This document shows, in pieces, positions 30,247-30,380 of a DNA stretch of 64,000 nt (position 1 is its first letter; every line of letters starts with the position of its first letter). The position numbers and the translations under genes were made by a program. Source of the stretch: Natronococcus sp. AD-5 (lineage in GTDB: Archaea > Halobacteriota > Halobacteria > Halobacteriales > Natrialbaceae); contig NZ_CP132294.1 in assembly GCF_030734285.1 (NCBI RefSeq), positions 3,534,001 to 3,598,000 on the forward strand. The letters run 5' to 3'. The notes beneath the pieces were generated by a model. It had not been told where the DNA came from. It did no database searches and saw nothing but the letters and a program-made list of their open reading frames with translations.

Positions 30247-30380
30247 TTCCAAACATGTTTGGGGCCACCGGTATTGCAGTCGGCCCCGTACGAGGGAATA
30301 CGGCAGGACGCCACATCATCACCTGCGCCATACACCACTGTCCTGCCGAAACCCCTACCCACCGCCTATCCCCTTTCTGC
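30247..30380 (+). ncRNA. candidate structured RNA, copy 1
   Basis: In order: the perfect 14-base palindrome CCAAACATGTTTGG (30249-30262); a hairpin with GGGGCC (30261-30266) and GGCCCC (30282-30287) holding a GGTATTGC loop; then a 9-bp stem CGGCAGGAC (30301-30309) with GTCCTGCCG (30340-30348) around a 30-base loop containing CGCCATAC; and a C-rich tail to about 30373. A diverged copy on the other strand at 36661-36806 keeps this order and two base pairs change in compensation. It is not a known RNA that I recognise. Promoter and transcript are not proven. Confidence 0.6.

Follow-up and report, generated by a model that had tools for sequence, protein, structure and literature searches.

A family of structured, probably co-regulated small RNA genes behind a dyad promoter in Natrialbaceae

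Two loci in the window (the whole stretch analyzed here, 64,000 nucleotides, positions 3534001-3598000 of a 4.1-Mb contig in the 5.17-Mb genome of Natronococcus sp. AD-5) belong to a family of structured RNAs that share a distinctive promoter. We read copies 1 and 2 as stand-alone genes for trans-acting small RNAs (sRNAs) under one regulator, in the manner of the streptococcal csRNAs, and give this reading as a whole a probability of about 0.6. That they are co-regulated, structured sRNA genes with a dyad promoter is very probable. The gene, the structure, and the promoter are well supported; transcription of the RNA itself we infer from the sequence.

Results

Copy 1 lies on the plus strand between pspAB and a PQQ-repeat gene, and its elements recur in the same order but reverse orientation on the minus strand at 36806-36661 (copy 2), as the preliminary description had stated. 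The features are as follows; E-values for RNAs refer to the covariance model built on 13 loop-motif loci (copy 1 and its relatives).

29604..30212, plus strand: pspAB, upstream of copy 1 and a synteny anchor (Pfam PspAB, 5.5e-74)
30249..30262, plus strand: promoter dyad of copy 1, CCAAACATGTTTGG, a 14-base palindrome and putative regulator site; CC/AA/GG near-invariant in 99 copies, no covariation
30270-30277, plus strand: GGTATTGC motif of copy 1, seen in the sequence
30272..30274, plus strand: TATA-like TAT of copy 1 (-28 to -26) within GGTATTGC, a fixed 9 nt past the dyad
30289..30290, plus strand: TA of copy 1 at -11/-10, proximal promoter element (99-copy columns)
30300..30378, plus strand: RNA of copy 1, predicted +1 at A30300 (offset of DUF7344 ATGs), 3' end uncertain within a pyrimidine-rich tail (E = 8e-21)
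30301..30309, plus strand: 5' arm of the 9-bp stem P1 of copy 1, CGGCAGGAC; two-sided changes at 8 of 8 modelled P1 pairs in 100 copies
30326..30333, plus strand: conserved loop of copy 1, CGCCATAC (family alignments)
30340..30348, plus strand: 3' arm of P1 of copy 1, GTCCTGCCG (100-copy covariation)
30349..30378, plus strand: C-rich tail of copy 1; a C/U-rich tail, often CGUACCCC, follows P1 in most copies
30422..31540, plus strand: PQQ-repeat beta-propeller gene, downstream of copy 1 (Pfam PQQ_2, 2.6e-43)
35307..36554, minus strand: sufS-like cysteine desulfurase gene, downstream of copy 2 (Pfam Aminotran_5, 1.3e-149)
36660..36752, minus strand: RNA of copy 2, predicted +1 at 36752 (E = 2.9e-10; fold)
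36752-36744 and 36709-36701, minus strand: P1 arms of copy 2 (fold)
36732-36725, minus strand: loop of copy 2, CGCCATAC; a C-rich tail follows P1 (sequence)
36790..36803, minus strand: promoter dyad of copy 2, CCAAAGTATGTTGG (promoter model, E = 6.6e-9)
C1:277568-277684, minus strand: third copy, outside the window (E = 8e-9)

The exact pair of loop motifs at the right spacing was found at 15 Natrialbaceae loci in a pattern search of 125 genomes, and all of these loci share the palindrome and the stem. Since the reversed pattern gave no match in the same 125 genomes, this recurrence is above chance. The exact motifs recur syntenically behind pspAB in Natronococcus and Natrinema. With the 13-locus model, copies were found in 85 of the 125 Natrialbaceae genomes, with up to five in one genome; Natronococcus sp. 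AD-5 carries the three listed above. Extending this search to the wider order added a single weak match beyond Natrialbaceae, and the RNA was absent at the pspAB loci of Haladaptatus, Haloferax, Halorubrum, Haloarcula, and others examined. A broader covariance model from 100 copies, run class-wide, gave at most six matches per genome and weak matches in two further families. Several such RNA genes in one genome are thus what both models find. At one locus (G107 C3:67924-70599), two RNA copies (L079 and L034) stand 2.5 kb apart with a 394-aa gene between them, together with a 55-residue pspAB fragment; this locus is split by duplication or insertion. Another single copy (L001; G008 C1:90090-90217) contains the CUGCGCCAUACAC motif twice.

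Downstream of the predicted start, the family folds into an outer stem, P1 (CGGCAGGA/UCCUGCCG), and an inner hairpin, P2 (CAACUG/CAGUUG around CGCCAUAC). Over the 100-copy alignment, 96.7% of P1 and P2 cells are paired, and changes on both sides occur at 13 of the 14 pairs. Because the copies were aligned by fitting them to the model, these counts lean towards it, but the margin is still large. None of 500 shuffles reached these values of pairing and covariation, and sliding the partner along lowers pairing to 42% or less. The 9-bp stem at 30301-30309/30340-30348, enclosing CGCCATAC and followed by the C-rich tail, is confirmed, as are the two compensatory changes noted between the copies (G-C to A-U and A-U to G-C); the proposed search of haloarchaeal genomes with a covariance model yielded both further copies and covariation beyond those two pairs. 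In Natronococcus sp. AD-5, P2 of copy 1 is eroded and P1 is intact. In Halovivax, P1 is wholly replaced (ACGGG/CCCGU), with the CUGCGCCAUACACGCA hairpin and the promoter kept. Folding the whole 134-nt stretch barely beats shuffles (z = -1.4); for the segment that runs from the predicted start to the last base of the stem, z against mononucleotide shuffles is -3.6 (copy 1) and -2.9 (copy 2). Together, these patterns indicate a selected, covarying structured RNA downstream of 30300, as first proposed. A small open reading frame was also considered and was rejected, since indels in the loop come in lengths not divisible by three.

The promoter half behaves differently. Across 99 copies its logo reads CCAAA-N4-[T/G]T[T/A]GG, CAC, then TAT, TA, and TA at fixed distances: 9 nt separate the dyad from TAT at -28, followed by TA at -11/-10 and TA at -1/+1. 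The TAT columns hold T, A, and T in 95, 96, and 90 of the 99 copies, and the -11/-10 columns T in 86 and A in 90. This part is 58 long in 91 of the 99 copies; the RNA part ranges from 23 to 119 nt. The palindrome at 30249-30262 is present as described, but the preliminary description had made it part of the RNA: its conservation without covariation and its near-rigid spacing point to promoter DNA. The hairpin reported around GGTATTGC stood as sequence and not as fold, its pairs forming in 42% of cells over 60 copies, which is the level of shuffles. A differently placed hairpin is possible in the promoter half of copy 2 and pairs little better than the GGTATTGC hairpin. RNA hairpins across this half were rejected for lack of covariation and shuffle-level pairing in the 60 copies. 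Judged by these columns, 30247-30299, with the palindrome and the supposed GGTATTGC hairpin, is archaeal promoter DNA.

A TAT at -28 to -26 with TA at -11/-10 is the usual archaeal spacing, and leaderless genes are common in haloarchaea. The dyad, 9 nt, and TA also precede protein genes, including two ortholog groups, both DUF7344, in which the ATG lies 51 (once 52) bases from the first base of the dyad, exactly the offset of the predicted RNA +1. If these genes are taken as leaderless, the transcript most likely starts at window position 30300 (A30300), one base before P1, at the foot of that stem.

With a promoter-only model, each genome yielded between 2 and 13 sites (E up to 5), of which the weaker are doubtful. 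Strong sites mostly precede RNAs, both class I, the class with the CGCCAUAC hairpin, and RNAs with other interiors. Of the latter, the sufS class has CA-rich loops; others carry a bare hairpin (L266), GGCACUGAACCAUGGAGUUCC (L272, L329), GGGGCACCCACCAGGG (L285, L327), CAGCGGGCG...CGUUCCGCUG (L274, L275), or GGCAGCGG...CCGCUGCC (the L165 class, Natronococcus sp. AD-5 included). In most, a stem starts at +1 or only a few bases from it, and a C-rich tail, often CGUACCCC, follows. One further sRNA-like gene with a dyad promoter and the stem GGCAGCGG/CCGCUGCC (L255/L165; G000 C1:2390056-2390114, minus strand) is matched by orthologues in two further Natronococcus (L159, L170). At G000 C1:2398487, plus strand (L169), and at L171 and L155, three Natronococcus in all, a dyad promoter stands before a conserved GCGGAGU...CUUCAUAACCACUU segment, possibly another RNA class; CUUCAUAACC is also found in L089 and L103. 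An Rfam match to sot2652 (sense overlapping transcript RNA) at L274:978-1163, plus strand, has a dyad promoter some 340 nt away and is probably unrelated to it.

All tested protein genes with a dyad promoter in Natrialbaceae encode DUF7344. Ten such genes, from several ortholog groups, have the dyad-9-TA promoter, and some are apparently leaderless. A DUF7344 protein could be the regulator itself or could be under its own control. Similar promoters in other families stand before hairpins at +1 (five loci) or before DUF7563 genes; at four loci in other haloarchaeal families, a short leader hairpin lies between the promoter and the DUF7563 gene. Scores outside the family are weak (E of 3e-4 to 0.05 per genome), and the spread of the promoter beyond Natrialbaceae is therefore merely suggestive. 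No convincing promoter site was found in named genomes of Haloferax, Haloarcula, Halorubrum, Haladaptatus, and Halocatena.

Discussion

The copies adjoin many unrelated genes and are often convergent with them (gene calls were heuristic), and this favors RNAs that stand alone over leaders. A cis-acting leader, that is, a riboswitch or attenuator of the next gene, would here serve the PQQ-repeat gene and sufS, and in these two commonest contexts the next gene does share the strand of the RNA, lying within a few hundred nt in the PQQ context and at about 100-230 nt in the sufS context. However, the next gene is convergent in many other contexts, among them gshA-like ones and the third copy of Natronococcus sp. 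AD-5, and the loop and promoter are unchanged whatever the neighbor. With orientation so mixed, the copies are not consistently placed 5' of a same-strand gene of one function, and we consider a leader quite improbable. As to individual contexts, at six loci the RNA is convergent with a glutamate-cysteine-ligase-like gene (GCS2), a few to about 140 bases apart, and at eight, which belong to some Natrinema and to two further genera, the RNA is followed by a gene for a membrane GAF histidine kinase in place of the PQQ-repeat gene.

A purely DNA-level element, a regulator binding region without functional RNA, would explain the strict conservation of the dyad and its occurrence before protein genes. 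However, the DNA-like behavior is confined to the promoter half, compensatory changes lie downstream of +1, and indels fall in loops rather than stems, so that this explanation is the least probable of those considered, by our estimate very improbable. A protein sponge or scaffold deserves somewhat more weight: a protein would bind P1, the CGCCAUAC loop, and the tail, and many co-regulated copies would titrate it, as CsrB/RsmZ do CsrA. P1 (GGCAGG) and the tail CGUACCCC are conserved in sequence across classes, which is also compatible with a bound protein, and one Natronococcus copy (L001) has the CGCCATACAC motif twice. Yet interior loops are wholly different among classes that share promoter, P1, and tail, which base-pairing targets fit better than one ligand, and Halovivax swapped all of P1 while retaining the loop. 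We regard a sponge as unlikely.

For the stand-alone, trans-acting sRNAs that we favor, the following mechanism can be envisaged. A putative regulator, probably dimeric, would bind the dyad CCAAA-N4-TTTGG, which lies 9 nt before a weak TATA box, and would exert joint control, most likely by activation, over all copies and over a few DUF7344 genes. The copies share this one regulator-type promoter at the level of sequence. The RNA would begin within a few nt of the foot of P1, which would seal its 5' end and enclose a single-stranded stretch that is poor in G and has many CAC, CACC, and UCAU motifs, to which class I adds the small CGCCAUAC hairpin; a C-rich single-stranded tail would follow. 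The unpaired segments would most likely pair with ribosome-binding and AUG regions of mRNAs and alter their translation, different loops addressing different mRNAs, as in the streptococcal csRNAs. Activation rather than repression, like the mode of target recognition, is what we infer from the arrangement.

Some observations bear on targets. CAC, CACC, UCAU, and CAU, which are complementary to the GGUG and AUG of translation starts, occur above shuffles in 23 divergent interiors (CAU in 14 of the 23 classes), an enrichment inflated by common descent. In one genome, three of the four non-self exact complements of the loop (GTGTATGGCG) lie at apparent start codons; among such matches, no gene was shared across three genera. 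Haloarchaeal genes often have neither leaders nor Shine-Dalgarno sequences, which weakens the idea of anti-Shine-Dalgarno pairing and leaves pairing with the AUG or coding region. We see roughly even odds that the unpaired segments pair with translation starts. A wider picture, which may equally well prove right or wrong, is a regulon composed chiefly of small RNAs. One regulator, possibly a DUF7344 protein that controls its own gene, would command RNAs with a common 5' stem and C-rich tail and with exchangeable loops, each for different mRNAs; the regulon would span the Natrialbaceae and extend, its stems altered, to at least one further family of haloarchaea.

To our knowledge, most archaeal sRNAs on record are lone transcripts, poorly conserved and with few targets confirmed, and a family of this form has not been reported from archaea. 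At gathering and permissive thresholds, Rfam 15 gave nothing relevant in the window or at the RNAs of 12 related loci, consistent with the earlier remark that this is not a known archaeal RNA. Open-access papers held no earlier description, though a copy may be barely listed in supplementary tables of halite or Haloferax sRNAs. On these two grounds, we take this RNA family to be unrecorded and of a general kind already known. Conserved, multi-copy, and with an identifiable promoter, it offers a handle on the commanding regulator and on target mRNAs, and makes regulator-commanded sRNA networks of the bacterial style testable in cultured archaea such as Natrinema.

Among archaeal systems, the family resembles in kind sRNA132 and SHOxi of Haloferax volcanii and sRNA154 and sRNA162 of Methanosarcina, intergenic sRNAs that act or are thought to act on mRNAs (PMC6560208, PMC9426492, PMC5867862, PMC3510493); the passages cited treat those sRNAs singly rather than as promoter-sharing families. 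Its promoter recalls that of Halobacterium bop, in which an upstream activator element precedes the TATA box (PMC2253796), a likeness of arrangement. The closest parallel is found in the streptococcal CiaR-dependent csRNAs, several similar sRNAs on the promoters of one regulator with unpaired anti-Shine-Dalgarno and anti-AUG stretches (PMC3091779). Both sets comprise multiple similar intergenic sRNAs per genome and a common regulator-type promoter, and unpaired CAU-type segments may be a further likeness (PMC3091779). Unlike the csRNAs, to which they have no homology, the Natrialbaceae RNAs have an archaeal TATA-type promoter with an upstream dyad (CCAAA-N4-TTTGG) in place of CiaR TTTAAG repeats, and their outer stem encloses the unpaired part, whereas csRNA hairpins flank it. 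Since at least three copies in one genome apparently share a distinctive promoter, the family suggests that archaea command co-ordinated sets of regulatory RNAs as some bacteria do.
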